Positions 19,106 through 36,893 of a stretch of DNA of 39,528 nt are shown here, in pieces. Position 1 is the stretch's first letter, and the number at the start of each line of letters is the position of its first letter. The stretch covers positions 1 through 39,528 of the forward strand of contig JAFWQT010000111.1 in the NCBI GenBank assembly GCA_017508965.1. The letters are read 5' to 3'. Both the position numbers and the translations under genes were made by a program. The notes under the pieces were generated by a model. The model worked only from the letters and a program-made list of their open reading frames with translations. It did no database searches and was not told the origin of the DNA. The stretch is from Prevotella sp. (GTDB taxonomy: Bacteria > Bacteroidota > Bacteroidia > Bacteroidales > Bacteroidaceae).

Positions 19106-22100
19106 TTACTTTACATACTTCTTGCCATTCTTAATCACAATGCCCTTCGAATGCTTGCTGACACGCTGTCCCGCCATGTTGTAGACAGGAACATCGGTCT
19201 CGGCGGCCTCAACGCCGCGGATACCGGTTGCGGTCTCCATGGCATCGAGCAGACCGTTCAGGGCATCGAACAGTTCCTCTGAGCTGTCATTCTCAAGAGC
19301 CTCGTTGGCGGCATCAATGGCCTTCTTCACATCAGGATTGCCGGCAACTGCCTGTGCCTCAGGAATCAGCTCGTTGATAGCATTGCGCAGGTAAGCCTTC
19401 TGGGCCTTATCAATCTCGTCGGCATAGTTCTTGATGTGCTTCGGCTGGTTGCTGTAGTCTTCACGGACAACATCCTGCGTGTCGTACAGGCGCTGAATCT
19501 CGGCGGCAAGCTCGTCGGCGGAATCGGCACCGGCAAGGATGTCCTCAGACTCGGCCAACTCGTATTCCATCAGAGCGGTAGTGTAGTCAATCTCAGCCTG
19601 CTTCAGGTCTGCAAGAGCCATATCCAACTTCTTCTGGCTGGTAGGTGTATCGGCCACGCTTTCAGCATCGCGGATAGCATCGACAAGAGCCTTGCCCTCC
19701 GTCTCGGGAGACTCCTCGTTGTTCTCATCATAGTACGGCATCGAGAACTTCAAGAGTTTCTTGGCCTCCTCAATCTCTGACAGAAGGTCGCTGTTGTCAC
19801 CGCTTGTAGACTCGGCAACCGACACAGGAATCTTCAGGTATTGCGTCTTGCCCTTCTGCGTGCAGCTCACCACAACGGTGAACTCCTCGGCATCGGTACC
19901 CTCGATGATCAGCTTGCCGGCTTCGGCATCGAACGTGACGGTAGCCTTGACATCGCCAGGAAGTTCATCGGCCAAAGCATAGACCACAGTGCCAGTGGCA
20001 TCGGTCGTGAAGAGATCGGCCAGTGAGATTTCAGCCGCATCCTCTACGTTCTGCTGCGGAGCCTCCTTCTCAGGACGTGCGCTGTTGAAGTTATCCAGAC
20101 AGAAGTATCCGGGAGTGGTCATGCCGTACTTATTGTTGCGCGAGCTCGACAGGAAGAACTGGAGCGACTTCACGGTGCCCAGCGGCGAGAGGTCAACCCA
20201 CTGCCAAGTGTCGAGATAGTAGCGGTCGTCGGGATTCTCCTGCCGGTAGTCGGCCAGATAAACCTCCACAGACTTACCGTTGTCGGCCGTGACGGTCAGT
20301 TTGCACCAGTCGCCCTTGTCGAAGGCATCGCTACCCGTCTCGGCATTCTTGGTCATATCGTCCTTCACGGTATAGGCATACACGTTCCAGGCATCGTTGG
20401 TGACGAACATACCGCGCAGCTCATCGCCCTCAGGATTGTTGAGCACGGTAATCTTTCCGCCCTGCGGGAACGACACGACATAGTTCTCGGAACCGTCGTA
20501 GCCGCCGCCGGCAGCATTGTTGAACTGCTGCGTGAAGTAATCCTTGCCATCGTACAACGTAGAAGTGCTGTTGCTATAGCTGAAGTTGTACCAGTAGTTC
20601 CAGTCGGGCATGAATCCGTTGTCGAACTTATAGCTTCCGCTGACGAACGTACTGGTGGTTTCTTCGGTTGAACCGGGCCAGAATCCATCCTCGGGATCCA
20701 CATAGAGCGTCTCGAAGGTGGCGGTGACAGCCTCACCCGTCACGATGGCACGCACGGTGGCGGTGTCAGCCTTTCCGGCATTGTCGGTAACCATGAAGAT
20801 ATAGTCGGTACATTCTGTCGGAGTAATCTTGACGGTGAAGATATCATCGGGCATCTCTTCGAAGGTCTCCGTCTTCAGCACATTATGCTTCTGGTCCATC
20901 CAAGTGAGCACATAGGGAGCGGTGGTCTCGTCGACCGTCACCATAGCCATCAGCGAAACTTCTGTTCCTGATTCCACGGTCTCCTCGTCCTGTGAATTAT
21001 TGATGAATACCATAGCCTCGGGCTTCAGCGTCTCGGGCGGCGTAACCTCCATAGTGAAGGTTTCTGTCTCGCTCACCACACCGTCTACACCGCGCAGGCT
21101 GATGGGCAGGAAGTAAGCCTTGTAGTCGGCATTGCCTTCCAGTTCCTCCACCTCGATGACGGTCTCGGCATTGGCAGCCACGTTCTTCTTCGTCTCGCTG
21201 GCCTTCAGCTCTTCAACCGTAGGAGCAGCCTCGTCGGCTTTCTTCACGATGTAGTAGAGCGTAGAGGCAAGGTCGGTCTTGACGGTGAACGCTGCCTTTC
21301 CGTCGAGATGCGTGATAACCTGCGGATAACCCTCCTGAATCACAGGAGCACTCATAGCATTCGGGTCGTATTCGTAGGCACCGATGGTAATCTTCTCTGC
21401 CGGACGCTCCTTGCCTACGATGTCGGTCGTGACATAGCTCAGTGGCTGCGCCTTCAGCAACTCTTCATCAAGGTCGTTGGCCGGTTCGAGAATGTCTTCT
21501 GAGAGGAATTCCACCTTCTTGTTGATATTGGCCGTAGCACCCGTCTTCTCCTCGAATGCGGCGAAGTCGCCCGTGGTGCCTGATGAGGCACGGAAGAATG
21601 TCTCGCCGTTGGTGAAGATCACGTTGTTCTGGAAGTTAATCTTGTCGGTGCCGAGATTAACGTCGTTATAGAGGTTCACGGCGTAGCCGCTGGTCTCGTT
21701 CTGGATGATGTTGTTCACCACGCTGATGTTGCCGTAGCCGTCGGCCAGTTTCGACGAAGCCCAGAAGGCAGCGCCGCCATTGGAGCCCGTCATGCGGATG
21801 GTGTTGTAGGCCACGTTCACGTTCTTGATGTTTGCACCGTTGAACTTGAAGGCCGAGTAGCTGGCGCTTTGCGAAGCCAGGTTAATCACGTTGTTGGCAA
21901 TCAGCACGGGTGCCTCGGCCTTGCCTTCCAACTGGCGCAGGTTCATCACGGCACAGTAGGTCTTCGGTGCCACGTTGAAGATGTTGCCGGTGATTTCGGT
22001 GGCCTCATCGTACTCGTCACGCAACTGCATGTCGAGGATGCCCACGCTAATCTTCGTCTCGGCATCGGCATCGATGTTGATGGTATTGTTGCGAATCTTC

Positions 22101-25100: not shown

Positions 25101-26188
25101 TTCGACACGATGCCGCCGTCTTTTCCGCCTTCGTCATAGAACTGAAGCGGTGTCTCGCCTACGGTAATGGTCTGCGGGGTGGATGTCATGATGACGATGG
25201 CAGGATTCTCCACGGCCACCGATGTGCCGGCTGAGAACGGGCTGACGCCACCGGGCTGTCCTTCGGTAGTAATCTTTGTAACGTCGAGCTGCACTTTAGC
25301 TCCAATCGCTGCCGTGGCGAGGATGTCGCCCTTGACGACGAAGTTGTTGGTTCCGTCGCTGAGCGCCTGGTTCAGGGCGAATTTATAGCCGCTGCCATCT
25401 TCAGAAACGGTGGCAGAGACAGGTGCGTCGCCATAGTAGAGTTTCAGGGCAGTGGGGTCAACCATGCCCTCGTTCTTAGTCAAGCTGAACGAGATGGACG
25501 TCACCTTGTCGGGATTCATCACGCCGGTAGCGGTAACAAAAGCCGTTGCCAAGTCCACGTCCTGCTTCTTTGTAATGGTGGCAGAGACATTGTCGTAGCT
25601 TGAACCGGCACCGGTGACGGTCATGTTCTCCAGTGTGACCACCTTGACGGTAGCCTTCCAGCCTGTACACTTGTTGGAATTGCGGTGCATGAAAGCCACC
25701 GACAGTGCGCCGTCGCTCGTTCCCGAGGTATAGACGGCAGGCAACGAAGGCTTGTTCTTGTTGTTGATTTTTTCAGCCATCAACGTTCCCGAAAGACCTG
25801 TCAGATTCGACGATGAATTCACTTCGGAGCCCATTGTTGCCCACTTGAACGCATCGCCGGCATCGGCAATGCCGTCGTAAAGGTTGATGTAGAGGAAATA
25901 GCCGTCGCTGAATTGGTTCAGGTCGATTTCCTCGAAGGTAATCTGAACGGACTTTCCCGCCTCAACGGGCTTGAAGACCGTCAGTGACTGAGCGTTGTAG
26001 CTGTTGTTGTCGACGATGTTCTCTGTCCCCCAGGGGTCATAGAACGTGATGACCTCATCGCTTGCGACTTCAATCACTTGTTTTCCGAATTGCTGCTGAT
26101 TGACGTCGCGGTCGGCCCATGCCCCGAGAGGCACGCCAAGAAGCGCAACAAGCAATAGCAGCTGCAAATGTAATAAACGCTGTTTCAT
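19106..26188 (-). CDS. Giant secreted multidomain surface protein with DUF4465 domain
   Basis: 2360 residues. Signal peptide (LQLLLLVALLGVPLGAWA). Residues about 30-1110 hold four CUB-like beta domains (starting near 30, 333, 598 and 881; each contains an FYD.GG or similar strand and a ..DGSLTVVF-type strand) alternating with Ig-like modules that end in .EG.N.F.VK. Residues about 1149-1530 form a right-handed beta-helix (DYATIQGAIDDLG, then many N.I...-type turns). An Fn3-like stretch follows, then DUF4465 at about 1824-2034 (YWYNFSYSNSTSTLYDG, AGGGYDGSENYVVSF). A helical region lies at about 2133-2319, and the C-terminal sorting-type tail is YNMAGQRVSKHSKGIVIKNG. DUF4465 proteins often sit in cobalamin-uptake loci of Bacteroidetes, and this gene is downstream of a cobalamin riboswitch, so a role in corrinoid capture is likely but unproven; adhesion is the alternative. 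Its ATG overlaps the stop of a truncated upstream frame. Confidence 0.85.
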   Translation of the reverse strand: MKQRLLHLQLLLLVALLGVPLGAWADRDVNQQQFGKQVIEVASDEVITFYDPWGTENIVDNNSYNAQSLTVFKPVEAGKSVQITFEEIDLNQFSDGYFLYINLYDGIADAGDAFKWATMGSEVNSSSNLTGLSGTLMAEKINNKNKPSLPAVYTSGTSDGALSVAFMHRNSNKCTGWKATVKVVTLENMTVTGAGSSYDNVSATITKKQDVDLATAFVTATGVMNPDKVTSISFSLTKNEGMVDPTALKLYYGDAPVSATVSEDGSGYKFALNQALSDGTNNFVVKGDILATAAIGAKVQLDVTKITTEGQPGGVSPFSAGTSVAVENPAIVIMTSTPQTITVGETPLQFYDEGGKDGGIVSKTNGQVTFLSGVEGKKVMVDFTNNSIWHGSYYNQELRIYKGQTVSEANLLKTLQKGEKAKVRSTADDGSLTVVLFSDASNDIAADGFEAEVSLFTPQAMDFDGVTASAAAPETVAASDAGQDFLTVTVKAKDTEPAMQVTKMAFSAEGTSSLISKASLFFGSTKVGETEVNADNFVITLTTPQALVEGENIFTLKYDIFEEALNGQKVSAKAVSVTALVNGAEKTENVADGAVAESYVKNEVFSHADQGTVTKTVNGAMDFFTNPKSEYSENYEGGTDDRVNIFVPKHEGMICQIDFSMFALYYSSYSPSSCAKFKIYSGQGTSGEVLWEPKTSEEFKNGPGKTIRSTAADGALTISFNPNNSYSSAAGWEAVVSEYQSKPMTVAAVEVAQASTADASIGASNQDLLTVNVKTDGDQNPLTLSNVKVNLKGTEANISNVSLWRDGEKLGEAAAAAEVTISLSEPVALSEGDNKFTVKADVSSEAAEGQTIDAKMVSVNAGTDVAVESGDPEGARTLKNMILIGEGDNGVITLAVGQKTMFYDDGGPEGDGTDGLNGTITFAPKEEGSSIRLTNQSLSFAYTAHLYIYEGSEVNDEKLIVDLTGSSAKFDPIVSDPTKDGGKITVKYVGAGSYTRPNFAIEVEGYKKKAVEVVGVATEDISTTEVLKGQTEVKMLKVTVETEGDADKGTLDITAFNLTAGGEAIEANHIYCTDNASTFSPVKEFSEKYTLTKAGTYYFWICSDMKTDAEVGQTGEVTLNSIATGETTVSIDEPATASVTIASGKSGEYTVGQGGDYATIQGAIDDLGTLGMEGPVTLKIKAGEYNEKVRIPNIKGLGATNTLTLQSESGQRDVKIFHNNYTTGGYSDDQHLKDYGVVTLYEANYVTLKDLEIYTTDKAYKAVVMVKDESRHATIDNCYLHAPICTTTGEDVSLVGHTIIDEENRNNDFLTIRNCLLEGGKIGVSMGGTSYVRLPKEVGGVIEGNTFKNNGQKAIYVMDELGVKIRNNTINIDADAETKISVGILDMQLRDEYDEATEITGNIFNVAPKTYCAVMNLRQLEGKAEAPVLIANNVINLASQSASYSAFKFNGANIKNVNVAYNTIRMTGSNGGAAFWASSKLADGYGNISVVNNIIQNETSGYAVNLYNDVNLGTDKINFQNNVIFTNGETFFRASSGTTGDFAAFEEKTGATANINKKVEFLSEDILEPANDLDEELLKAQPLSYVTTDIVGKERPAEKITIGAYEYDPNAMSAPVIQEGYPQVITHLDGKAAFTVKTDLASTLYYIVKKADEAAPTVEELKASETKKNVAANAETVIEVEELEGNADYKAYFLPISLRGVDGVVSETETFTMEVTPPETLKPEAMVFINNSQDEETVESGTEVSLMAMVTVDETTAPYVLTWMDQKHNVLKTETFEEMPDDIFTVKITPTECTDYIFMVTDNAGKADTATVRAIVTGEAVTATFETLYVDPEDGFWPGSTEETTSTFVSGSYKFDNGFMPDWNYWYNFSYSNSTSTLYDGKDYFTQQFNNAAGGGYDGSENYVVSFPQGGKITVLNNPEGDELRGMFVTNDAWNVYAYTVKDDMTKNAETGSDAFDKGDWCKLTVTADNGKSVEVYLADYRQENPDDRYYLDTWQWVDLSPLGTVKSLQFFLSSSRNNKYGMTTPGYFCLDNFNSARPEKEAPQQNVEDAAEISLADLFTTDATGTVVYALADELPGDVKATVTFDAEAGKLIIEGTDAEEFTVVVSCTQKGKTQYLKIPVSVAESTSGDNSDLLSEIEEAKKLLKFSMPYYDENNEESPETEGKALVDAIRDAESVADTPTSQKKLDMALADLKQAEIDYTTALMEYELAESEDILAGADSADELAAEIQRLYDTQDVVREDYSNQPKHIKNYADEIDKAQKAYLRNAINELIPEAQAVAGNPDVKKAIDAANEALENDSSEELFDALNGLLDAMETATGIRGVEAAETDVPVYNMAGQRVSKHSKGIVIKNGKKYVK

Positions 26189-26376
26189 AAGCTATTGTTA
26201 TTAATTAGTATTGATGTATAAACTATCTCCCGGTAATGACACAGATGCACAGACTTATCCACAGCCAATAAATACTGGCTGTGAACAGTATCGACGGTCG
26301 TCTGTTGCGCCTCAAGCGGCCATACGCCAACGAATGCTATAAGGCACGTCAATGCCCTGATAGCTGGCTTTTTCAT
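26185..26376 (-). pseudogene. Truncated leader frame, remnant of a 31422-32510-type gene
   Basis: 63 codons. The first 43 residues, including the signal peptide (CLIAFVGVWPLEAQQ) and VHSQYLLAVD, match the N-terminus of the 362-residue protein at 31422-32510 at 26 of 43 positions. Similarity then stops and the frame ends in TGA, which overlaps the ATG of the giant gene (ATGA). The gene appears to have lost nearly all of its body by deletion, bringing the riboswitch and start region next to the giant gene. The remaining frame may still be translated and couple translation to the giant gene. Confidence 0.75.
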
Positions 26377-26401
26377 CGCATAACCATTAAATCATCTTCC
26401 A

Positions 26402-26602
26402 CCGTCTTCCGCGAGACGGGAAAGAACAATAGTGAGAGGCAGGTCTTCTGACTTGTTGCCGATGCAAACGTCTTCCCGAAAAAAGTTCAGTGACGCGTTT
26501 GTTTGCACCATGAAGGGCAACTCACAGCTGCGGGACAGTCCAGGATTCGCACCTGATTCCCATTTTAATCGCCTGTGCAGCGAACCAATCACGTTTCAGG
26601 GA
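26402..26602 (-). promoter_or_regulatory. Cobalamin riboswitch controlling the truncated leader and giant protein genes
   Basis: On the minus strand the aptamer contains the conserved core AATCCTGGACTGTCCCGCAG followed by CTGTGAG, a CACTG B12-box-like segment and the 3' signature GTCAGAAGACCTGCC. It closely resembles the second riboswitch at 38962. A small hairpin with arms CCGTCT and AGACGG (26402-26419) lies about 25 bases before the leader ATG and may be part of the expression platform. High adenosylcobalamin or a related corrinoid would be expected to shut expression off. Confidence 0.92.
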
Positions 26603-26603
26603 G

Positions 26604-26703
26604 CAAAGGTATAAAATTTTTGATTAAGTGAGCGCAAAAAAAATGAATTTATTATGCCGAACGTGAAAAAACAGGCAAATTATTGATTAAGAGAGCGCAA
26701 AAT
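26604..26703 (-). promoter_or_regulatory. Promoter of the riboswitch transcript, with upstream direct repeat
   Basis: The -7 element TACCTTTG is at 26604-26611. Upstream, a 20-base block (TGATTAAGTGAGCGCAAAAA on the plus strand, 26621-26640) recurs at 26684-26703 with two mismatches, 63 bases apart. It could be a regulator site or a simple local duplication. Confidence 0.5.
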
Positions 26704-26991
26704 CACATTTCAAATCACACTTACCCAACCGAATCTGCATACTATTTCACGAAGAAGATTGCGGTCGCTAACCGGAATAGTGATAGCGATAGTCTCTTTC
26801 TCCTTACTGCCCAAACAAGACAAAATTCCCAAATATGAGAACAGTTAGCCAAATAATTACCACTTTTTAACTTAAGACAAAAACCGCGGCATCCCCGTAG
26901 AGCAATGGCTGAGGCTGCTGTAGGAAGCTCATTAAACGCTGCTTCGTGGGTATCGGAATCGATTTGTTTGGGAAGTGGATATCAATTTCTG
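26704..26991. other. Non-coding gap at the left edge of the accessory island
   Basis: About 290 bases between the riboswitch promoter and the ORF6N gene. There is no convincing gene or terminator. A GC-richer patch at about 26880-26980 has a 31-codon plus-strand frame without recognisable features; I do not call it. Confidence 0.4.
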
Positions 26992-28029
26992 TTACTTTAG
27001 CAATTTTATGATTGTTTCAGCCGATACCTGCATCTTCGTGACAGCACACATACCTACACCCATGTCCTTAACGCTGGCACCAAGCAAATAAACCTCATCA
27101 TCAATAATCAAGAAACGGTCGTGATTCTTATGAGGTAATTGAACGAATTCTATCTCTCTATATTGCTCGTTGTGCTTTGTCAAATCCGTTAAGAACGATT
27201 CATAATAGCGGCTATGAATCGTGGCTTCAACACCTTTTGCACGTTTGTCAAGCAATGATAGTACACGGTCATCCACGAAGTTGTCTATCAATATTATCCT
27301 GTGCTTTGCGCTCCGAACCAAGTCGGAAACATACGACCATGCATCCCATACGCAACCTGTGGCGAAAACATGTTCAGGTAACTGCTGCGGAATTCGTTCC
27401 TCTATGGTGGTTAGTATCTGGTTTACTTTCTCGTCAGTTTCTGTTTGGTGCTGTTCGATGCTAAGGATGCGCTGCATCATTAGAGCATTATTGTTCAATA
27501 TCTCAGGTATTGCCGTGAAAGCACGCATAATACGAATGTTCACGCCTACTGCAGTTTCAGACCTCAGCACGCTACTTAACATGCCAATACCATTCCTGGT
27601 GAAAGCATAGGGTAGCGTTCTTATCTTCGACAAATCTTTTGTGGTCGCAATTTGCGACCGCAAAACAGCAATCATCTCATCCTCAGGTGTTTCTGTGGTC
27701 GCAAATTGCGACCGCAAAGTATTCCATTCCTCTTTTGTAAGTTGGAACATGAAGTCATCTGGGAAACGTTCAATATTACGCCTTACCTGCTCATTAAGAC
27801 GTTTGTTCTGAACCCCATAGAGCATTGCCAAGTCGAAATCAACAATCACTCTCTGCCCTCGGATTATGCGGATAAGTTTCTCAATGCAGACGTCTTTTCG
27901 GTCACCATTTGTGACCGAAAGCTGTGAATATACAGTTAACTGGTCGTAATTTGTGACTAGTTCACTCGTCACCTTGCTTTCGCTTTGACCTGCAACTTCA
28001 GTTTCCTTCTTCTTGCTTTTCTTAGGCAT
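26992..28029 (-). CDS. ORF6N-domain protein with C-terminal phospholipase-D-like domain
   Basis: 345 residues, no signal. The N-terminal about 55 residues are Lys/Ser/Thr-rich. An ORF6N domain follows (DFDLAMLYGVQNKRLNEQVR, then RFPDDFMFQLTKEEW and LPYAFTRNGIGMLSSVLRSE), a phage-type DNA-binding domain common in prophages and mobile islands. A linker leads to a C-terminal PLD-like domain with HDRFLIID, a variant of HxKxxxxD in which Lys is Arg. The ORF6N-PLD pairing is a known Bacteroidetes family of unknown function. The gene contains four palindromic DNA motifs (27643, 27697, 27900, 27942). Last gene of the island operon, 12 bases after the previous stop. Confidence 0.85.
   Translation of the reverse strand: MPKKSKKKETEVAGQSESKVTSELVTNYDQLTVYSQLSVTNGDRKDVCIEKLIRIIRGQRVIVDFDLAMLYGVQNKRLNEQVRRNIERFPDDFMFQLTKEEWNTLRSQFATTETPEDEMIAVLRSQIATTKDLSKIRTLPYAFTRNGIGMLSSVLRSETAVGVNIRIMRAFTAIPEILNNNALMMQRILSIEQHQTETDEKVNQILTTIEERIPQQLPEHVFATGCVWDAWSYVSDLVRSAKHRIILIDNFVDDRVLSLLDKRAKGVEATIHSRYYESFLTDLTKHNEQYREIEFVQLPHKNHDRFLIIDDEVYLLGASVKDMGVGMCAVTKMQVSAETIIKLLK
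27643..27958. repeat. Four related palindromes inside the ORF6N gene
   Basis: GGTCGCAATTTGCGACC at 27643-27659, GGTCGCAAATTGCGACC at 27697-27713, GGTCACCATTTGTGACC at 27900-27916 and a degenerate GGTCGTAATTTGTGACT at 27942-27958. The first two encode the duplicated peptide LRSQFATT / LRSQIATT, 18 codons apart. The last two encode VTNGD and VTNYD in the N-terminal extension. Confidence 0.7.
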
Positions 28030-28041
28030 ATTTAGTCATGC

Positions 28042-28347
28042 TTATACGTTATTCGATAGGATTCTGATGTCAGAGGTAGTTAGTCTTGCATCGTAATTAT
28101 CGTAATTGACAAGACCATGAATCTCGTTAGTTGTAGGACATCCTTCTTTATCAATATCTCCCCAAACCGTAAAGTATGGATATGGGGCTTCAGAATTACG
28201 CTCAAGTCCATTTGATGATAAATAGTCAACATCAGCCTCCCATCTGCCCTCATCTTCAAACAAAATGTCATGCTTAGAATCGATCTGCACAAGATAGATT
28301 ATTCCTTCATGTTTAATCTCAATCAGAATCTTTTCATTTATCCTCAT
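28042..28347 (-). CDS. Hypothetical protein, 101 residues
   Basis: Acidic protein without signal peptide or membrane segment and no recognised domain. It starts with alternating basic and hydrophobic residues (MRINEKILIEIKHEGIIYL), suggesting a small beta-rich fold. The start is 15 bases after the DUF3883 gene and the stop is 12 bases before the ORF6N gene, so it belongs to the same transcript. A partner or immunity-type protein for the neighbouring nuclease-like proteins is possible but unsupported. Confidence 0.6.
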   Translation of the reverse strand: MRINEKILIEIKHEGIIYLVQIDSKHDILFEDEGRWEADVDYLSSNGLERNSEAPYPYFTVWGDIDKEGCPTTNEIHGLVNYDNYDARLTTSDIRILSNNV

Positions 28348-28362
28348 AGCTTTGTTTTATCG

Positions 28363-29124
28363 TTACCACATCAAATCTTCTGAATAGAAGTTCGTTTGTA
28401 CTGCCCGTTGCTCTCTTGGAGTCAGTTGAAGCAGTTCTGTAGGATTCTCAAATAAACACAGTTTGGGTTTACTTACGAGGTTGCTGACAATCACAAGAAT
28501 ATAGTCACGCCTGTATTCAGAAGCCTTATTGTATTCATTTTGCGTCATGCGGATGGAGCCATGTTTCTCACGTACACCTTTTACTTCTACCAGTAGGTAA
28601 GAATTCCCTGTCTGTATCTGGAAGTCGTAGCCGTCACCCCAAAGACGTGCATCTTCCAGAATGCCATCCTCAAACCTTTCAACGCTTTTGTAGTTTCTCA
28701 TAAAGTAGAACTCTGCCTCTTTACCCGTTTCCTGCAACTGCTTGAACTTTGACTTTGTGGCAGGCGATGCACTGGCAACAGACAAGTTGATATTGGAATC
28801 AATGTCCTTGATGTACATCTTCACAACATTGGCAAACCCATGAGCGTCTTCGTTGCCAAACAAGCTGTCGATGAAGAACTTGATGTGTTCACGCTGATTG
28901 CGCTGATACCATCCTCTTCTTCCATTGTCGAAGTACGGATCAAAACTATCTTGTCTGTTAGAAACAGCTTTCCATGTATTCGCAAGACCTAAATCCACGA
29001 AGTACTGTCCGAACGCTGTCTTCGTCGTGAAGCCAAACTCTTGGATAAATGTATAATCGAATTTAGCCAGCCCATAGCCAATAAGGTTCATCACCTCCGA
29101 AATCTTCTCATTTCGTGTACTCAT
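28363..29124 (-). CDS. DUF3883-domain protein (PD-(D/E)xK nuclease-like)
   Basis: 253 residues, cytoplasmic. An N-terminal helical region (1-125) of unknown role precedes the C-terminal DUF3883 domain, with the PD-(D/E)xK-type pattern GKEAEFYFM, GDGYDFQIQ and LLVEVKGVREKHGSIRMTQN. DUF3883 is found in restriction and other anti-phage loci, usually fused to helicases or other effectors; here it stands alone behind a short helical domain. 36 bases after the PD-(D/E)xK/DUF4357 gene, same operon. Confidence 0.75.
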   Translation of the reverse strand: MSTRNEKISEVMNLIGYGLAKFDYTFIQEFGFTTKTAFGQYFVDLGLANTWKAVSNRQDSFDPYFDNGRRGWYQRNQREHIKFFIDSLFGNEDAHGFANVVKMYIKDIDSNINLSVASASPATKSKFKQLQETGKEAEFYFMRNYKSVERFEDGILEDARLWGDGYDFQIQTGNSYLLVEVKGVREKHGSIRMTQNEYNKASEYRRDYILVIVSNLVSKPKLCLFENPTELLQLTPREQRAVQTNFYSEDLMW

Positions 29125-29160
29125 ATTGCAAAAAAGTCGTCAAGAAGCACTATAGACGAG

Positions 29161-30609
29161 TTATTTCCTGTAAATATCAAGTTCATTATTGTTTTCATCT
29201 TTCCAGTCTTTCCAACCATTTGATGAGCCGCCAACGCAGAATACTGCAGCACCGCTTGGAGAATCGAAAGATGCATCTTTGATTAATACTAGTTCTTCAC
29301 CCTTACGTTCTGTATACTCAGCAATCAATGCTTCACGCTTGAGCTTGGTCTCTATTCTTATCTTTTCAAGATGGCGAGGATTGATTTTGCTGCCTTTCAG
29401 CACTACCAGAGTCTGTGTGGCAACGTCAAACAGTCCTTTGGCATCAGCATTGCGTGTAAGTGTACATGTTATCATTCCATCCTTCTTTGGCTCAACAGGT
29501 GCGAATGCAGGTGTCTCTCCTGAGGTTGTAATCACATAACCTAATTTCTTGGCTAACTCCACCACCCTGGGGGTATTTCCAATTCCCCATTGGGAACAAA
29601 CTGCGAAGGTGATGCCATCTGAACTATGCAGCAGTTCACTATCCTTCATCAGAAACCTGTATTTCTCAATTCCCTTTTCGCGAATGTAGTCTGTGGTGCG
29701 AATTACTCCGTATGAACCTTGCAACGTTGAAGGGAATGTCTGTTCCAAATCAGCGAATGTGGCAGATGGATGCTCTTCGACGTAGGTCCTCACAAGTTGA
29801 TAGACGAAGCGACGTTTACCTTGAAATGGGCCTCCATCTATCGAGTATTGAGTTTTATCGTGCTGTTGCTTGGGTTTTACTGTATCAGGAACTTGTTTCT
29901 TGGGAGCGACAACAGGCGTAGCTACTAAGGGCTGCTGCCCGTCTTTAGGTGTTGCCGTGAAGTTCAGCGATGCAAGCATACCCACGATGTCGCTTTCTGA
30001 GAAGGTGTTGCCGTATTTCTCCATTAAGTACATCTTCAAACCTTCCGCTATTTGTCCCTGGGCATCAGTAATCAGATGGTCTTTGATTTTGTTCAGACTC
30101 TCCTGATGGCGCATTTCCTTGATGCGATCCTCGCAGAACTGAACAATAGCCTCCTTACTAAAGCGGTCTTTAGAGAACAGATCAACGAAGCGGGCACCAC
30201 GCTTGTTGTCCAGTTCCAAAGGAATCGACAGCACAGATATTGCATTCTCACTATCAGGCTGGTCATAGAATATCTCGATATGTTCTCCGATGTAGATGCC
30301 TGCTTTCAGTTTCAACTGACGCATATAGGAAACCAATTGGTCTCTATCTTTCGCTATCTGCGTATGCAAAGGACGCTTCACTTCGATAACAAACTGTTTC
30401 TTATCATCCTTCTGAATGAGGATGTCTGGCTGTATATGTCCATTGTTGCCGATGGAAAGATTCGGCTTATGGCATATCTCATTCTTGTACCTCATCCAGC
30501 CCAACAATTGTAGCTGAGCCTCAATAGTAGAATGATATTCAGGCTCTTCCACACCGTTTTTCTTAGCTTCGCGCAGATAATATACAAATTGGTTCCACTT
30601 CTCTAGCAT
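29161..30609 (-). CDS. PD-(D/E)xK nuclease-like protein with C-terminal DUF4357
   Basis: 482 residues from the ATG at 30607-30609. A longer frame opening at 30645 begins with a non-ATG codon inside the promoter element and is rejected. The N-terminal domain (about 20-170) resembles HsdR_N / type I restriction nucleases: HIQPDILIQ followed by QFVIEVKRP gives the D...ExK core. The middle (about 250-350) is of unknown fold, with SIDGGPFQGKRRFVYQLVR. The C-terminal DUF4357 is recognised by VVLKGSKINPRH, KDASFDSPSGAAVFCVGGSS and NGWKDWKDENN. First gene of the island operon; probably DNA-targeting, with DUF4357 as a possible substrate-binding module. Anti-phage function is an inference from domains and neighbours. 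Confidence 0.78.
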   Translation of the reverse strand: MLEKWNQFVYYLREAKKNGVEEPEYHSTIEAQLQLLGWMRYKNEICHKPNLSIGNNGHIQPDILIQKDDKKQFVIEVKRPLHTQIAKDRDQLVSYMRQLKLKAGIYIGEHIEIFYDQPDSENAISVLSIPLELDNKRGARFVDLFSKDRFSKEAIVQFCEDRIKEMRHQESLNKIKDHLITDAQGQIAEGLKMYLMEKYGNTFSESDIVGMLASLNFTATPKDGQQPLVATPVVAPKKQVPDTVKPKQQHDKTQYSIDGGPFQGKRRFVYQLVRTYVEEHPSATFADLEQTFPSTLQGSYGVIRTTDYIREKGIEKYRFLMKDSELLHSSDGITFAVCSQWGIGNTPRVVELAKKLGYVITTSGETPAFAPVEPKKDGMITCTLTRNADAKGLFDVATQTLVVLKGSKINPRHLEKIRIETKLKREALIAEYTERKGEELVLIKDASFDSPSGAAVFCVGGSSNGWKDWKDENNNELDIYRK

Positions 30610-30634
30610 ATCTTTCCAAGTTTGTTCTTGTTTG

Positions 30635-30642
30635 CAAAGATA
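30635..30642 (-). promoter_or_regulatory. Promoter -7 element of the island operon
   Basis: TATCTTTG on the minus strand, 25 bases before the start codon, in a very AT-rich region. It implies a leader of only about 20 bases. Confidence 0.65.
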
Positions 30643-30844
30643 CAAATAATTTTCTTATTTATATATAAAGAGGTGGAATTTATAATTATTTAAATCGTTG
30701 GGGGATGTAGTAACTATTCTGCACCCTCTCACTTTCTTCAACAAAAAAATTCAAAAATCTAACTCGACCCGGTTAGCGTTATGGTTATCGTTATCGTTAA
30801 AACAATGGGGCGTGTTGGGTTGTGTTACTTTGTATTCTTAACAA

Positions 30845-31312
30845 GAAATTTGTTGAAAAATAGGTTTTAACTACACTAACACACTTTTCTTACTTATAAT
30901 CAATGTATTAGACTATGTAGTTAAACTACACTAAACTACATGCTAACTACACTATAACTACACGCAAACTTCATTTAGGCATCCTGAAATGCTGGTTTGA
31001 ATTTTCGCTAACGTCAGTTCCCGTCAGTTCCGAACTTGGGAACTGACAGTTCCGCCTATTGGAACTGACAGTTTCTCGTATCGGAACTGACAGTTTCCAA
31101 TATCGGAACTAATTCGGAACTGCCTGAAAAACAATTGATAAGAACGATAATTCGTGTGGAAAGCCCTATTTGGCCGAGGTCCGCCGAATGGGCATGTAGT
31201 TTCGATGTAGTTAGCATGTAGTTAAATGTAGTTTAACTACACGGGTTAACTATCAGCATATGAGCGGCTTGAAATGGGCGATGTAGTTAATACCTATTTT
31301 TGAGGAAATTTC
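30845..31312. repeat. Large mirror-symmetric heptamer array around an iteron core
   Basis: Non-coding dyad without a gene. AACTACA or its complement TGTAGTT occurs six times in each arm. Left arm: 30869, 30916 (reversed), 30924, 30934, 30945, 30956. Right arm: 31195, 31206, 31217, 31227, 31235 (reversed), 31282. Every pair is exactly symmetric about 31078.5. Inner spacing is 10-11 bases (one helical turn), and symmetry extends outward to GAAATTT / AAATTTC at 30845 and 31306. The inner 47-base arms match at 41 positions; mismatches fall between heptamers. Sequence outside the motifs in the outer spacer has diverged, so motif and spacing seem to be what is conserved. It lies upstream of the island operon and downstream of the terminator at 31361. 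Confidence 0.85.
31013..31124. repeat. GGAACTGAC iterons at 22-base period
   Basis: Core of the dyad. GTCAGTTCC at 31013 and 31023 (10 apart, reversed), then GGAACTGAC at 31039, 31061 and 31083, a degenerate copy at 31105 (exactly 22 apart each time) and GGAACTGCC at 31116 (11 further). 31023 and 31039 form a palindrome with a 7-base centre. The unit lengths place all copies on one face of the helix, as in protein-binding arrays. There are no CRISPR-type spacers. Confidence 0.85.
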
Positions 31313-31360
31313 TCAGAAAGGTATTTTTTTATTGCACATGTACATAGAAGAGGCTATACA

Positions 31361-31396
31361 AAAAAAACTTATCCCCCACACGGGTGGAGGATAAGC
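31361..31396 (-). terminator. Rho-independent terminator of the 31422-32510 gene
   Basis: On the minus strand, CTTATCCTCCACCC pairs imperfectly with GTGTGGGGGATAAG and is followed by a run of eight T. It lies 26 bases after the stop. Confidence 0.85.
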
Positions 31397-31421
31397 TTTG
31401 AGGGTAGCTTTTGCTCTATTC

Positions 31422-32510
31422 TCACTTATTCACAAATTGCTTTCCGTTCTTGATGCAGATGCCACGATAGGCGCGCGAGACGCGCTGGCCCTGTAAGTTG
31501 TAGAGAGCGCTCTGCTGTGCCGACTGCACCGGACTCACGATTGCCGTGGCCGTGCGGATGGCATCGAGCGAGGCTTCCAGATGCAGGTCGTGGGCTCCTG
31601 CCACTTCGGTGGATGTCTCGCCCAACTGGGAAACGGTCTGGTTCATGCCGTTATAAATACGAATAAAGTCGATGAAATCGAGGTTTTGGGGCTGTCGGTT
31701 CTCATCCACGGCCCAACTGATGTCGATTGAGCATCCTTCTTCATCGCTATTGGGAAGATTGTCGGCATAGCCGTAGCGCAGGAACATCAGCACCCACTGT
31801 TTCTTGTATTTCCCCTGTTCGAAATACCAGGCATTCTGCGGCAGACGGGTACCGCTGAAGGTCAGGTTGTCGTCGAGCCAGCCTGGATAATACTCCTGGG
31901 TGTGCTGAAACGCATCCATACGCTTGATAACACCCGATTCGCCACGGTTGTCGGTCCAGGGAATCTCCTTCATGGGATTCTTGCGGTAGGTGATGCTGTA
32001 GGCATAATCCACCTTCCCCACGCTGTCCACATCGGCCGAGCCGCTAATCTCGTACCAGGGGTCGTCGGGCACGCCGTTATGGTTCTCATCTTTCGAGACC
32101 ATGATGATGCCCGGCTCGCTACTGCCGCCGGGGATATCCGGGAACATCGCGCTCTGTATGGCGTTGCCAAGAATGTAGAAGTCGCGCTGCCCGCTGATAT
32201 TGGCAATGCTGTGGTCGAAATGGAAAGTGACGTAGCCGCCATAGCCGCCCAGCGTGATCATGCTGTGACGCTCGTCGGCATAGTCGCCGGCAATGGCCTC
32301 GGTGCATTTGGCTGCCATCCTGGCTGCATCGTCGCCCGCCTCCCAGACGGGCAGGTCGTTAACAAACTGTCCCGGAGCGGGCACATACTCGTCGACAGCC
32401 AGGACGTAAGGGCTGTGAACGGCGGCATCGGTCATCTGCTGGGCTCCAAGCGGCATCACGCCGATGAATGCCAGAAGGCAGGCCGATGCCGCGATTGTTG
32501 ATTTTTTCAT
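31422..32510 (-). CDS. Secreted surface protein of the cobalamin locus
   Basis: 362 residues. Signal peptide (ACLLAFIGVMPLGAQQ), then a conserved block (LAVDEYVPAPGQFVNDLPVW), GGYGGYVTFHFDHSI, the GIIMVSKDENHNGVPDDPWY segment (a Ca-binding-like DxNxNGxxD), NLDFIDFIRIYNGM, and the C-terminal sorting-type tail YNLQGQRVSRAYRGICIKNG. This family of uncharacterised surface proteins recurs in corrinoid-uptake loci of Bacteroidetes (recollection, not checked). A truncated relative lies behind the other riboswitch at 26185-26376. Last gene of the cluster, 33 bases after the lipase-like gene, with its own terminator. Confidence 0.75.
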   Translation of the reverse strand: MKKSTIAASACLLAFIGVMPLGAQQMTDAAVHSPYVLAVDEYVPAPGQFVNDLPVWEAGDDAARMAAKCTEAIAGDYADERHSMITLGGYGGYVTFHFDHSIANISGQRDFYILGNAIQSAMFPDIPGGSSEPGIIMVSKDENHNGVPDDPWYEISGSADVDSVGKVDYAYSITYRKNPMKEIPWTDNRGESGVIKRMDAFQHTQEYYPGWLDDNLTFSGTRLPQNAWYFEQGKYKKQWVLMFLRYGYADNLPNSDEEGCSIDISWAVDENRQPQNLDFIDFIRIYNGMNQTVSQLGETSTEVAGAHDLHLEASLDAIRTATAIVSPVQSAQQSALYNLQGQRVSRAYRGICIKNGKQFVNK

Positions 32511-32543
32511 TTAGTTTTTCCTTTAATAATTCGTTCTATAGAG

Positions 32544-34250
32544 CTACCATCCCCACTGACTGTAGTTGACGTCGATGCCGCCGAGCAGGAGCCAGTTGGC
32601 CAGGGTCTGCTCATACTGGCGCATCAGATAGACGGGAACCTCCACATTGTCGGCCAGCGTATTGACGGGAGCTGCCGAAGCGGGACTGTCGGAAGTGAGA
32701 TAGTTGTAGACAGCCATGACGTCGGCCAGCGTGATGCCTGAATCGTCGAGCATCTCGTAGGCATCTTCGATCGTCAGGTCCACCTTGGCCAGAGCGTCGG
32801 AGATTTTCGCGATGACTTCGAAGAAACTGGCACGCCGCGGCGCACTCAGCTGGCGCACGCTGCCCTGCGGGTCGAGGCTGCCGTCGCTGAAGCCACTGTT
32901 CATGTCCTCCACAAATGCGGGCGCGCTCTTCGCGCTCATGTTCTTCACCAGCGCGCGCAGGTCGATGCCCCACCCCTCGATATACTTGACGACCTTCATC
33001 AGGTTCATGTCGTGCACCACATCGTGGTAGTAGCGGTTCTGCTCGCCCTCATAGTAGACGACGGGCCAATACTGGATGGCAGCCATGGTCTGCACAAACC
33101 ATACGGCAGCAGAAATCTGATGATTCAGCTTGAACACCAGCGTATTGGTCTGCAGCGACGACTTGCCGGGCACCAGACTGGGCTTGAAGTTCTTTTTCTT
33201 CATCCATGTAATCATGGCTCGGCTGCTCTGTATGGGCACATAGTTGTCGTGGCGGCTGTGCTCGATAAAATAGTTCTGCGTGGGGTCGGGTTCCCAGCCG
33301 CTGGCAATCTTGAGTTCGGACAGTTTGGCTGACAGCGCCTTGGCCTGGTCGCTGTTCAGATTCATATAGGCGGGCTGCAGCAGCTGATGGAGCGAGTCGA
33401 TGGAAACGTCGCTGTTCTGGGTGAGCACCGACTTGTCTTTCTTCACGACGTATTCCTTAGCGTTTGAGGCCACCGGCTCCTTGAACAGGTCGCTGTAGTT
33501 GATGCCCAGATGGTAGTTCTCGTTGACGGAGATGAGGAAGGTGGCCACGTCTTTCCAACTGTCGCACACATCCTTCTTCACGAACTCGCTGTAGGCCTTC
33601 TCGCAATCGAGCACGCCACCGCCAGAGAAACTCTTGTCGAAGGTGATGCCCTTGTCCTTATACTCCATGTCGCGCAGCTTGGCTATGTACATTGTTTCTG
33701 TTCCGCCCTGCGAATAACCTATGTTGAACTGGAACTTGCCCAGCGGGACATTCTTGTCGGTAAGCATCTGGCGGGCAGCCACCAGTCCGTCGAGCGAGTT
33801 GCGCGCATTGGTATCGCCGCAGAGATAAGACACCTTGCGGTCGATGCTGGAGCCATAGCCAATGTAGTCGCTCGAAACGACGATATAGTTGGGCTTCAGC
33901 GGACTGGCCAGAATGCCCGTCTGCACTTCGATTCCGCCCTGCGAGGGAGCCTCCGAGGGATTGCCGATGGTGAAGTGGTTGTACAGGATAATGCCGTCGC
34001 AGGGCACGCTGCCGTCCATCACGTCCGAGGGAATCAGCACTACGCCGCTGACGGTGGCGTCCTTGCCTTCGCCGTCCTTCGAGGGATACTCATATATTAT
34101 ATAATGAACGGGGCGCGAACCCAGCGCCACGCTTTCTATCTTGGCCTTCACAATGGTGTCGGTCTCATACAGAATCTTGTAGGCGGTCTGTGCACTTGCA
34201 GTCGTCAGCATGGCGACCACAGCAATAAGGGTGAGTGTTATCTTCTTCAT
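32544..34250 (-). CDS. Secreted alpha/beta hydrolase, secretory-lipase-like
   Basis: 568 residues. Signal peptide (MKKITLTLIAVVAMLTTASA). Alpha/beta-hydrolase fold with the nucleophile motif NIGYSQGGTE (GxSxG), a strand and oxyanion region IILYNHFTIGN, and a late His in SRHDNYVPIQ as likely catalytic His. The middle insertion resembles the lid of secretory (LIP-type) lipases. No sorting tail is visible; the C-terminus ends DVNYSQWGW. Substrate unknown. 16 bases downstream of the EEP-fold gene, so co-transcribed. A link to corrinoid uptake is only by position. Confidence 0.78.
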   Translation of the reverse strand: MKKITLTLIAVVAMLTTASAQTAYKILYETDTIVKAKIESVALGSRPVHYIIYEYPSKDGEGKDATVSGVVLIPSDVMDGSVPCDGIILYNHFTIGNPSEAPSQGGIEVQTGILASPLKPNYIVVSSDYIGYGSSIDRKVSYLCGDTNARNSLDGLVAARQMLTDKNVPLGKFQFNIGYSQGGTETMYIAKLRDMEYKDKGITFDKSFSGGGVLDCEKAYSEFVKKDVCDSWKDVATFLISVNENYHLGINYSDLFKEPVASNAKEYVVKKDKSVLTQNSDVSIDSLHQLLQPAYMNLNSDQAKALSAKLSELKIASGWEPDPTQNYFIEHSRHDNYVPIQSSRAMITWMKKKNFKPSLVPGKSSLQTNTLVFKLNHQISAAVWFVQTMAAIQYWPVVYYEGEQNRYYHDVVHDMNLMKVVKYIEGWGIDLRALVKNMSAKSAPAFVEDMNSGFSDGSLDPQGSVRQLSAPRRASFFEVIAKISDALAKVDLTIEDAYEMLDDSGITLADVMAVYNYLTSDSPASAAPVNTLADNVEVPVYLMRQYEQTLANWLLLGGIDVNYSQWGW

Positions 34251-34266
34251 TGTATGAGTGCATTAA

Positions 34267-35421
34267 TTATTTGATGATACGTTTGCGGATGCCCTTGGCC
34301 GTCTGCTCGATGTAGATGCCACTGGCGGGATGGCTGACGCGCTGGCCGCTGATGTTGTAATACTCCGCATTACCTTCGGCCTGTGCATCATTGCCAATGG
34401 CCTGGATACCAGTAGACTTCCTGTCGGTCAGCTGGAACGTTGCAGCCACGGGGAAGTGGTCGCTCAGCGCCTTGCCATTATGCTTGAAGCCTTCCATGTC
34501 GCGACTATACGACAGAGGCTTGAGACTCATGCTGGCCGATGCTGGATTGATGTAGAGAATCTTGTCGAGCGACTCGCCGCCGTGCTCTTCTTCACGGTCG
34601 TCGCGCACGCGGTTGTCCTCCTGATAGTCGGGGAACTTGCCTTTGTTCTGCAGTTCCACCCACACGTCGGCTATCGTGGCCTTGCCCGAGGCGTTGATGG
34701 CATCAATGAAATCCTCCTTCGCCTTGTCGCGAAAATAGAATGTGTTGAAGTCGCCCAAGACGATGACGGGGCGGTCGTCCAGCCGGTTCAATATTTCATC
34801 GCGCAACTGCTTCCGCTGGTTCTGGCGGGCGGCGCGGTCGGGACCGGCCTTGCCTTCCTCGGTGTCAAGGTCGTCCTCGGCATCCATGTGCACGTCGTAA
34901 ACCACCAGCTGCATCCCGTTTGCCAGCGTCACCTCATAGCGGCGGAAGCCCTTGGTGGCCAGCAGGTCGTTGTTGTGGCTGAACTTTCCGAATCCGTCGG
35001 CCCATGCCGTGCGCTGTCCGGCCGACACGTTGTGGCCGTTCTTCCAGCAGGCCATCAGTCCGTCGCACTCGAAACGATGGTTCTGCAGGTGCAGGAAGTC
35101 TACCTTATGGCCTTCGAGCCCGACGTCGCCGCTCCATGTGTCAAACCGATAGTTATCCTCCATCACGATTGACAGTTCCTCGTGATAGTTGAAATCCTCC
35201 TGCAGGAACATCAGGTCGTAGTCCTTCTTCAGCAGGTACTTGCCAATGCGCACCGTGCCCGGGCTGCCAGGTCCTTCGGCATTGACGTTGAACACCAGAA
35301 TCTTCTGGGGCAGTCCGTCGATGTTCAGCGTGGCAATGCTGAACTGCTCCGTCTGCTGGGCCTGCCCCGAAACAGCCATGCCAAGCGCCACGACTGCCGA
35401 GAGAATGTGTCTTTTAAACAT
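34267..35421 (-). CDS. Secreted endonuclease/exonuclease/phosphatase-fold hydrolase
   Basis: 384 residues from the ATG at 35419-35421 (an ATG three codons upstream at 35430 is equally possible). Signal peptide (HILSAVVALGMAVSGQAQ). The DNase I-like / sphingomyelinase-type fold is shown by SIATLNIDGLP, LMFLQEDFN (metal-binding Glu), VVYDVHMDAEDD, VIVLGDFNTFYF, SLDKILYIN and ALSDHFPVAA (catalytic His). Ends in the sorting-type tail YNISGQRVSHPASGIYIEQT. Probable extracellular phosphodiesterase; substrate could be nucleic acid, phospholipid or inositol phosphate. Its own promoter is at 35470-35477. Confidence 0.82.
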   Translation of the reverse strand: MFKRHILSAVVALGMAVSGQAQQTEQFSIATLNIDGLPQKILVFNVNAEGPGSPGTVRIGKYLLKKDYDLMFLQEDFNYHEELSIVMEDNYRFDTWSGDVGLEGHKVDFLHLQNHRFECDGLMACWKNGHNVSAGQRTAWADGFGKFSHNNDLLATKGFRRYEVTLANGMQLVVYDVHMDAEDDLDTEEGKAGPDRAARQNQRKQLRDEILNRLDDRPVIVLGDFNTFYFRDKAKEDFIDAINASGKATIADVWVELQNKGKFPDYQEDNRVRDDREEEHGGESLDKILYINPASASMSLKPLSYSRDMEGFKHNGKALSDHFPVAATFQLTDRKSTGIQAIGNDAQAEGNAEYYNISGQRVSHPASGIYIEQTAKGIRKRIIK

Positions 35422-35469
35422 ACTTATCATTACGATTTGTTTGGTTACCAGATAGTTAAATACTGCGTG

Positions 35470-35477
35470 CAAAGATA
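35470..35477 (-). promoter_or_regulatory. Promoter -7 element of the EEP-hydrolase-surface protein unit
   Basis: TATCTTTGC on the minus strand about 50 bases before the start, suggesting that the last three genes of the cluster can be made apart from the riboswitch-controlled btuB-btuG transcript. Confidence 0.6.
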
Positions 35478-35561
35478 ATAATAAATTCGCAAAGCTGTTT
35501 CTGCAAAATGTTAAAAAAGCGGGAATCCCTGCTTTCCCCTACAACATAGACGCACAACTCC

Positions 35562-36758
35562 CTAAAACGAAGAATCCACGAAAACGGCATGGGCGGGAAT
35601 GTCGCCGGTGCGGACGCTCCAGTCGAATGTTCCGTCGGCCTTGAAGTGGAACAATTCGCCACTCGACACATAGTTCTTGGCATCCATCAGGTAGAAATCC
35701 TTGTCCATGGGATTGACAATCAGTCCATAGGGCATCCGGATATTGTTCAGTTCGGGAGCATCCGTCAGACGGTCAGCCACCACCCGATGACTTCGCACGT
35801 TGACGATGCCATAGCTGACGGTGTTGCGCTGTAACTCGTTGCTCCATTGCGTGCCTATATAATATAAGGAGTCGCCCACGATGCACATCTCGCTGATGGA
35901 CAGTTCCAAAGAATCACCCACGGCCGCTATCCCGTCGCTGCTCTGCTGCAGGCAATAGACGCGCGGAGGCACCTCTTCGTAGTTTCCGCGCGACGTTACC
36001 CACAGCTGTCCGTATCGGTCAACACGACAGCGGTGCAGGTTAAGCCCCACGTCGATTGTCTGCTCCACCCGGAACCTGTCCAGGTCGACCACGCTCACCC
36101 GGTGGTCATACTCAGGTGGCATATAGCCGCCGCTGTTGGCCACATAGAGTTTCCCGTCAACAATGGCCATCTCTTCCGGCTGATAGCCCACTTCCACACG
36201 GTCTACAATCTTTAGCGAAAGGGTGTCAACCTTATACACTACGCCCACCTGCGATTCGTCGCCCATCACCGGACCGGCAAAACTGCTCACGTAGGCAAAA
36301 CCCTTATGGAAAGCCAGATAGCGGCAGTTGGGGATGTCCACTTGTCCTATGCGCCGGGCATCCTTGGCGTAGGCCACCTCCACCTTGTTCGAGCAGTTGA
36401 TGACCATCCAGAGGCGTGAACCATATATCTTGATGTCGTTGCCCACGTCGCCCAGTTCCTTCACTGTGGTGGGATTCTGTGCCGAATAGATGTTGCGGTG
36501 ATACTGTGCTGTGGTCAGGTCCAGGTAGTCGAGCGTGCATTTATTGCTGCCCATATTCCCCTCGCAAAGCACATACATCCCCTTAGTGTTGCCCGAGGTA
36601 ACCGCCTCAGCGCCCGTCTCGTAGGTAGTCGCATAGATAATCGGGTCGTCGGTGCGGCAGGAGGAAAGGAGAAGACCAACTAGAAGACCCACCCCCACCC
36701 TCCCTATGAGGGAGGGAGCAAATACTCTCAGCCTATGTTGTAAATATTTATATGTCAT
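35562..36758 (-). CDS. btuG: BtuG-like cobalamin-binding surface lipoprotein (DUF5074 beta-propeller)
   Basis: 398 residues. Lipoprotein signal with lipobox LLLSSC (C34), then a DUF5074 / YncE-type seven-bladed propeller: VLCEGNMGSNKCTLDYLDL, GNDIKIYGSRLWMVINCSNK, CRYLAFHKGFAYVSSFAG, repeated .V.VDL..F.VE.TI.VG. BtuG proteins cap BtuB on the Bacteroidetes surface and bind cobalamin very tightly; the adjacent riboswitch and btuB support the name. Residues 14-26 of the signal peptide (APSLIGRVGVGLL) are encoded by a GC-rich palindromic repeat, so the repeat supplies part of the hydrophobic core. No later ATG gives a signal, so this start is kept. 135 bases after btuB. Confidence 0.82.
   Translation of the reverse strand: MTYKYLQHRLRVFAPSLIGRVGVGLLVGLLLSSCRTDDPIIYATTYETGAEAVTSGNTKGMYVLCEGNMGSNKCTLDYLDLTTAQYHRNIYSAQNPTTVKELGDVGNDIKIYGSRLWMVINCSNKVEVAYAKDARRIGQVDIPNCRYLAFHKGFAYVSSFAGPVMGDESQVGVVYKVDTLSLKIVDRVEVGYQPEEMAIVDGKLYVANSGGYMPPEYDHRVSVVDLDRFRVEQTIDVGLNLHRCRVDRYGQLWVTSRGNYEEVPPRVYCLQQSSDGIAAVGDSLELSISEMCIVGDSLYYIGTQWSNELQRNTVSYGIVNVRSHRVVADRLTDAPELNNIRMPYGLIVNPMDKDFYLMDAKNYVSSGELFHFKADGTFDWSVRTGDIPAHAVFVDSSF
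36682..36719 (-). repeat. GC-rich palindromic repeat inside the btuG signal-peptide codons
   Basis: 38 bases; on the minus strand it starts GCTCCCTCCCTCATAGGGAG and ends GGGTGGGTCTTCT. It differs at one position from the copy at 36811-36848, which lies in the opposite orientation. It encodes btuG residues 14-26. Confidence 0.85.
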
Positions 36759-36810
36759 TACTTATCTTAATTCAAACTTAGCGTTTATCATTCCGTGCTT
36801 ATCACTAATC

Positions 36811-36880
36811 GCTCCCTCCCTCATAGGGAGGGCGGGGGTGGGTCTTCTATCCCTCATAGGGAGGGCTGGGGTGGGTCTTC
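36811..36880 (+). repeat. Two tandem GC-rich palindromic repeats between btuB and btuG
   Basis: A full copy at 36811-36848 and a shorter one at 36849-36880, both ending GGGTGGGTCTTCT. They are inverted relative to the copy at 36682-36719 and could pair with it in the transcript. Confidence 0.85.
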
Positions 36881-36893
36881 TTCTTTTTTATTT

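Follow-up and report, generated by a model that had tools for sequence, protein, structure and literature searches.

A mirrored heptamer site in Prevotella: probable orphan copy of a predicted origin-like site of chromosomal primase-helicase modules

Results

A mirror-symmetric element between two minus-strand genes

The window analysed here is a stretch of 39,528 nucleotides from a Prevotella sp. genome (contig JAFWQT010000111.1; the genome is called G000 below). Between two genes on the minus strand it carries an element in which copies of the heptamer AACTACA and its reverse complement, TGTAGTT, flank a repetitive core.

29161..30645, minus strand: left neighbour gene, with DUF4357 and phage-defence-candidate matches (family scan); outside the element
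30840..31320, no strand: whole element, probable orphan mirrored-iteron site; similarity to the G000:C9 and G000:C162 copies spans 30841-31330
30840..30854, no strand: left outer short dyad AACAAGAAATTTGTT (sequence); not intact in every copy
30869..30875, plus strand: left outer heptamer AACTACA (motif scan)
30916..30922, minus strand: left reversed heptamer TGTAGTT (motif scan)
30924..30962, plus strand: left array, AACTACA at 30924, 30934, 30945 and 30956 (10/11/11 bp; motif scan)
31013..31122, no strand: core, GGAACTGACAGTTYC near-palindromes at 31039, 31061 and 31083, with half-sites on both sides (sequence)
31195..31233, minus strand: right array, TGTAGTT at 31195, 31206, 31217 and 31227, mirroring the left array (motif scan)
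31235..31241, plus strand: right reversed heptamer AACTACA (motif scan)
31282..31288, minus strand: right outer heptamer TGTAGTT (motif scan)
31301..31315, no strand: right outer short dyad TGAGGAAATTTCTCA (sequence)
31422..32510, minus strand: right neighbour gene, with no Pfam or NCBIfam match (family scan); outside the element

The right-hand neighbour gene has relatives among the 200 genus genomes searched with the window flank. Minus-strand genes in 26992-30645 match phage-defence-candidate families (PDC-S05 with ORF6N, NOV_C/TmtA-like, and PDC-S14/S57). An Rfam scan of 26500-33500 at the gathering threshold gave no match inside the element, the sole match being a cobalamin riboswitch at 26500-26604 (minus strand), before a 2360-residue ORF at 19106-26188.

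The original prediction had described twelve heptamers in exact mirror symmetry with a constant pair sum, and we recovered every one of them at its predicted position. The six AACTACA/TGTAGTT pairs share a single exact mirror axis, left start plus right end equalling 62157 for each pair. Counting both strands, the window holds 21 copies of AACTACA, as against a mean of 3.28 and a maximum of 8 in shuffles, and 12 of these copies fall within 420 bp. Each arm comprises an outer site, a reversed site 47 bp inward, and then four sites at steps of 8, 10, 11 and 11 bp. The core is built of a 15-bp near-palindrome, GGAACTGACAGTTYC, on a 22-bp period and flanked by half-sites, the reversed ones at 31013-31031. 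Exact GGAACTGAC repeats start at 31039, 31061 and 31083, giving steps of 22 and 22; the remainder of the predicted series of 22, 22, 22 and 11 is obtained only by counting the partial fourth and fifth repeats (GGAACTAAT at 31105 and GGAACTGCC at 31116). With a GC content of 0.38-0.52, the core of this copy is not AT-rich. The short outer dyads pair within each arm in letters that differ between the arms, as had been noted, but this feature is not universal, one end being broken in the C162 copy.

Heptamers are conserved over spacers among copies

Genome G000, which is 71% complete, contains two more copies of the element, on C9 (83% identical) and C162 (82% identical). The C9 copy has six pairs on a single exact axis, and the C162 copy has five pairs on the axis and one mutated heptamer; a copy in another genus genome, G341, also has five pairs. 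These second occurrences keep the spacing inside the arms; the arm-to-arm distance shifts by some bases between copies. The outcome named beforehand as refuting the original prediction, a lone occurrence or unkept spacing, was looked for and did not arise.

Spacers of the two further G000 copies diverge by 10-24%. Among the copies of this genome the heptamers differ at 0 or 1 of 84 bases and the spacers at 38-90 of 372-386, in agreement with the earlier proposal of selection for a protein-bound architecture. In all six comparisons among the three G000 copies and that of G341, heptamers (0 or 1 difference in 77-84 bases) are conserved over spacers (38-101 in 342-386), with p values from 0.003, for C9 against C162, the weakest contrast, to 1.6e-10, all calculated by bases as if these were independent, which they are not. 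This contrast is no artefact of selection, because the copies came from a whole-element BLAST and not from a heptamer search. The heptamers are also the more conserved part in 27 of 27 comparisons among 13 copies from G122, G340 and G112 (p about 0.05 or less), about half of these 13 copies having been collected by the heptamer pattern. Judged from these sequence comparisons, selection for a protein-bound architecture of the dyad is supported.

The element belongs to a family centred on Prevotella

A first search for the full element in 60 relatives returned only G000 itself. A wider search gave matches in 21 of 398 genus genomes, many of them to the core only. Three heptamers in register occur in 16 of the 398 and in both orientations in 9, compared with 1 for a backwards control; the triple-heptamer pattern was not found in 382. 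Scanning a collection of species genomes yielded at least 118 stretches with the heptamer pattern. Among the 80 matches listed, forward-then-reverse arrays 250-400 bp apart belong to Prevotella, Prevotellaceae or Xylanibacter records; the numerous single hits from other phyla look fortuitous. Further elements were found at L155 (a Bacteroidaceae record), L200, L219 and L231.

We read 36 elements of mirrored layout, most of them, where a title was available, from Prevotella or Xylanibacter records. On one exact axis, 318 of their 456 heptamers pair, and 398 do so within one base; distances between same-strand neighbours are mainly 11 bp (177), 10 bp (69), 8 bp (47) and 53-56 bp (58). Because the set was partly collected by the heptamer pattern, these figures describe the family rather than test it. 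The GGAACTGACAGTTCC core is found in the three G000 copies and in G341. In 22 of the remaining 32 elements the palindromes are of AAATTCTCTAGAGAATTT type, mostly 65-66 bp apart, and the arms contain ACCTACA variants; 10 have neither core type by exact match.

Searching by the core alone gave 20 GGAACTG arrays, of which three (L024, L028 and L036) have strongly mirrored arms in other letters, one (L020) is borderline and 16 are at or near the shuffle level; L028 also has a VapE gene. The GGAACTG arrays of 22-bp period without strongly mirrored arms include G000:C164:2120-2182 (L010, L013), which may lie in a coding region, although 22 is no multiple of three.

By blastn, the window element and one type-B element had no match in 72,556 plasmid records, and the window element had none in phages. 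In IMG/VR, three heptamers occur in 41 stretches, 17 of which were flagged by a loose count of nearby motifs, and by eye the layouts of the flagged stretches differ from that of the window; the VapE protein of G177 had no relative in IMG/VR by the search run. Four viral contigs there (L243, L248, L252 and L265) share nearly one AACTACA/TGTAGTT layout, with 9-11 bp spacing and unlike the window's, which may be an origin or operator of a phage that uses this heptamer too.

Linked copies lie directly upstream of primase-helicase genes

In seven of the nine genus genomes with arrays in both orientations (G032, G112, G155, G177, G304, G340 and G341), a primase-helicase gene with a PF08800 match (BT4734-like AEP primase) has one copy immediately upstream and adjoining it, while the other copies stand alone. 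Both Xylanibacter ruminicola genomes likewise have a copy directly upstream of a PF08800 gene, one of them, Ga6B6, carrying both a linked and a solo AACTACA copy, and G363 has a linked copy with GCCTACA-type heptamers. A family scan placed PF05272 (VapE) in the primase proteins of G112, G177, G341 and G363; those of G032, G155, G304 and G340 are 77-98% identical to a protein so scanned, and for the two X. ruminicola proteins the identity to relatives or to each other is 87-92%. Compared with solved structures, the VapE domain has a match to the VapE-like chain 7pds_A, titled "Similar to D. nodosus vapE" (E 1.4e-8). Across eight compared regions, VapE is the sole ORF common to all, other neighbours being common to some.

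Within the flanks examined, a divergent HU-HIG gene stands across the site from the primase-helicase in 9 of 50 PF08800 loci, all nine of which have arms; none was found in those of L091, L095, L096, L106 and L117. Beside the linked copy of G341 lies what we take to be a Cas9-like gene (L283:1457-5287), with a 66-bp-period repeat array between the two, and another presumed Cas9-like gene (L053:2-1936) lies beside a solo copy in G340.

The window copy is itself solo, having no adjacent primase-helicase gene. Control of the adjacent nuclease island, one of the original candidates, is unsupported, since the neighbours vary among copies and the recurring partner is the primase-helicase. BT4734-like primase genes are numerous, with up to 14 hits in one genome. 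In G122, which is 99% complete, three copies are intact and there are three PF08800 hits, of which two fall outside the iteron clades on the protein tree described below and the third is weak (26.6 bits) and left off the tree; G000 has two PF08800 genes, neither with mirrored arms. Copies therefore persist without a visible cognate primase-helicase. The partner may have been lost or may act on more than one type of site; alternatively, the copies may be moved by something else.

The same geometry recurs in other letters

Upstream of other primase-helicases we read, by eye, arms of CCTCTAC (two loci) or of AACCACC or TGTATAG-like units, and palindromic cores such as GGAAACAATTTGTTTCC or TTCCCACCTTGGGAA. 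A motif-free mirror test, with 200 shuffles for each locus, was applied to 48 of the 50 PF08800 loci, the other two being too short upstream. Sixteen of the 48 have at least 15 mirrored 6-mers, a level reached in 0 of 200 shuffles each, on an axis 207-353 bp before the gene. L097 scores 10 (0 of 200 shuffles as high), L110, L348, L352 and L356 show a slight excess (7 to 20 of 200 as high), and the remaining scored loci are at or near the shuffle level. L089 and L091 are non-significant or weak in this test, although arms were read there in a separate reading, which found arms in 12 of 30 loci.

On a tree of 45 PF08800 proteins, the 14 labelled as iteron-bearing need 3 changes, compared with 12.1 in shuffles; L103-L105 and L350, labelled "none" on that tree, were positive in the later mirror test. 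The mirror-positive loci fall in two clades. In clade I, arms are present in all 12 readable loci (weakly in L091), and in clade II the mirror is significant in six of nine loci and not in the other three. AACTACA heptamers occur both in clade I loci and in G341, of clade II, although the VapE proteins of these loci are only ~43% identical to that of G341. Because AACTACA serves both clades, heptamer letters do not simply track the VapE tree. G341 and G363 carry different heptamers, and of the 47 differences between their VapE proteins 15 lie in the C-terminal 75 residues (p 3e-5), an argument for the C terminus that is thin, coming from this single switched pair; four pairs with the same heptamer have 2 of 53, 12 of 90, 14 of 97 and 4 of 80 differences there, with no significant excess. 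On these sequence data, the site family and its link to primase-helicases are well supported.

Solo copies are intergenic and seem to spread on their own

Solo copies are intergenic and, by ORF calling, lie between divergent (L011), tandem (L049, L051) or convergent (L048) genes. Between the two solos of G112, 49 of 425 spacer bases differ, compared with 165-168 of 379 between either solo and the linked copy; those of G340 differ at 27-57 of 343-351 among themselves and at 37-71 of 297-328 from the linked copy. The solo copies therefore seem to have spread as their own lineage.

A tblastn search for remnants found no VapE beside 41 solo loci, some of which hold the same element, or in window positions 24001-38000, and HU-HIG near L146 alone, its gene about 2.3 kb off. 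A GCCTACA-type copy on G422:C6 (L329:1900-2400, X. ruminicola Ga6B6) is followed directly by nine VapE C-terminal residues, as though all but the end of the gene had been lost by deletion, and so a few solos may be remnants.

The copy on G422:C5, also in Ga6B6, is absent at the matching place in X. ruminicola SIG140 (G423:C27), where a 9.7-kb insert carrying a divergent PF08800 gene is found instead; the flanks match over a long stretch on the left and a short one on the right. This insert (L321:2995-12739) has a short direct repeat near both ends. Elsewhere, solo copy G423:C20 (AACTACA) and the G422:C1 copy (mostly GCCTACA) occupy the same neighbourhood and are mutual nearest relatives outside the motifs by a small margin (0.68 versus 0.66 and less), making a concerted heptamer switch or a second insertion possible.

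No convincing target-site duplication was found in the 36 elements. Their longest flank repeats average 7.2, compared with 6.8 in mismatched pairs; one 6-mer offset is common to four elements against 0.1 expected, all the words being A/T-only, and L219 has one 14-base flank repeat. Flanks of L070 gave only a partial match in 30 relatives of G304, and those of the L326 solo matched over just 67 bp in three genomes. In the DNA examined, 39 array pairs lie within 450 bp, two lie at 630 and 876 bp (L217 and L153) and none is wider, while 105 array rows, a figure that counts repeats and chance matches, are unpaired. The wider of these two pairs (L153:4531-5473, Prevotella sp. Tb.RUG.325) has extra GCCTACA units and damaged core palindromes between its arms, and no ATG-started ORF of 60 residues there.

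Discussion

The sequence itself shows the site family and its geometry, its placement upstream of primase-helicase genes in several genomes, the retention of heptamers in dispersed copies, and the recurrence of this geometry in other letters. We favour reading the 468-bp dyad as an orphan copy of a cis site belonging to chromosomal primase-helicase modules, and we predict that this site resembles a replication origin. In such a module, one protein joins a BT4734-like AEP primase to a VapE-type helicase, and a divergent HU-HIG gene is often present as well. Each arm, with about six heptamers on one helix face, would load one initiator-helicase hexamer by way of a DNA-binding domain at the protein's C terminus; between the two loaded arms the palindromic core would melt or be bound, and the fused primase would start synthesis. 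Two arms of about six sites would fit two hexamers. Gene-free copies would be daughters of such sites, scattered to other places with their binding sites intact and recognised in trans.

As described in a published account (PMC7581432), the Rep helicases of staphylococcal pathogenicity islands (SaPIs) recognise an iteron origin beside their gene by a C-terminal domain, load on it and appear to bind as two hexamers. The site described here resembles the SaPI Rep/PriRep origins and the SCCmec Cch2 site in having short iterons near a gene for an initiator-helicase, and an AEP primase. Iterons in two sets are present here too, and the adjacent helicase gene is present at linked copies only. As to an iteron sequence specific to each initiator, the letters differ between VapE genes and one switched pair has a C-terminal excess of differences, yet AACTACA is used in both clades. 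SaPI origins are described downstream of rep, whereas our site is upstream of VapE and, in nine loci, has VapE and HU-HIG genes diverging from its two sides; it also differs in having core palindromes that repeat every 22 or 65 bp and in its several gene-free copies per chromosome. Origins used by initiator-helicases and built of iterons would be expected to have an AT-rich unwinding region between the iteron sets, unlike the window copy, given the composition of its core. Plasmid RepA iterons, parC of R1 and stb of R388 consist of direct repeats spaced at ~11 bp, in two sets flanking a middle; compared with these plasmid sites, ours are mirror-symmetric, chromosomal and multicopy, and the two elements compared with the plasmid records had no match there.

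Chance or local duplication of the window dyad is already refuted, its probability being close to nil, by a heptamer count above that of shuffles, by copies in the same genome that keep the spacing and by elements in other genus genomes. A more serious rival, although an unlikely one, is that the dyad is a MITE, with the ends of a conventional transposon and a transposase acting in trans, the VapE-linked copy having been domesticated or having arisen by chance insertion. Like MITEs, the elements are small, gene-free, intergenic and multicopy, with several copies per genome in differing flanks and long imperfect inverted ends; one copy present in Ga6B6 is missing at what may be the matching place in SIG140, where another insert lies and the right flank match is short, and the G112 solos resemble each other more than they do the linked copy. 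Against this, convincing target-site duplications are lacking in the 36 elements and no transposase counterpart was seen, array pairs lie at most 876 bp apart in the DNA examined, in which 105 array rows stand unpaired, with no ATG-started 60-residue ORF between the L153 arms, and what is conserved is the internal arrays and core rather than the terminal bases. Chance insertion also fails to account for the sharing of one geometry, in different letters, among related VapE genes.

The linked site might instead be an operator that represses or activates divergent VapE and HU-HIG promoters, solos being stray regulatory sites. Its position between divergent genes in the HU-HIG loci and its arrays phased on one helix face, which suit cooperative binding, are in keeping with such a role, but solos keep both arms and the core without a constant orientation of neighbours by ORF calling, and a simple operator would hardly need a phased core and two arms that each have about six sites; we regard this explanation as quite improbable. 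The partition-like half of the original candidate "origin or partition-like" found no positive evidence, the origin-like half being the one favoured. Dispersed chromosomal copies and 10-11-bp iterons flanking a core do recall plasmid parC, yet a par-type, centromere-like or chromosome-organising site bound by HU-HIG or VapE is very unlikely: the few neighbours scanned by Pfam include no partition-type protein, HU-HIG was not found in the flanks examined of several linked copies, nor was the triple-heptamer pattern in most genus genomes.

Origin function of the site family is the reading that we infer to be the most likely, at somewhat better than an even chance. The originally proposed non-autonomous mobile element is favoured with it, as the other side of an origin-like site. 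Tentatively, and with the balance of probability against it, we suggest that orphan origins are selfish DNA without a transposase: they would hijack a chromosomal primase-helicase in trans, be copied from their own mirrored iterons, insert without target duplication and outlive the loss of their partner. They may also be decoys that titrate the initiator of incoming relatives.

In the literature searched, mostly without subscription papers, we found no account of this site family and no described target of BT4734-like primases. A defined mirror-symmetric site beside the genes for these primases offers a concrete handle on their role. The spread of the orphan copies is the surprising part of the finding, and the dispersed gene-free copies pose the question of whether an origin could be spreading through the chromosome without a transposase of its own.
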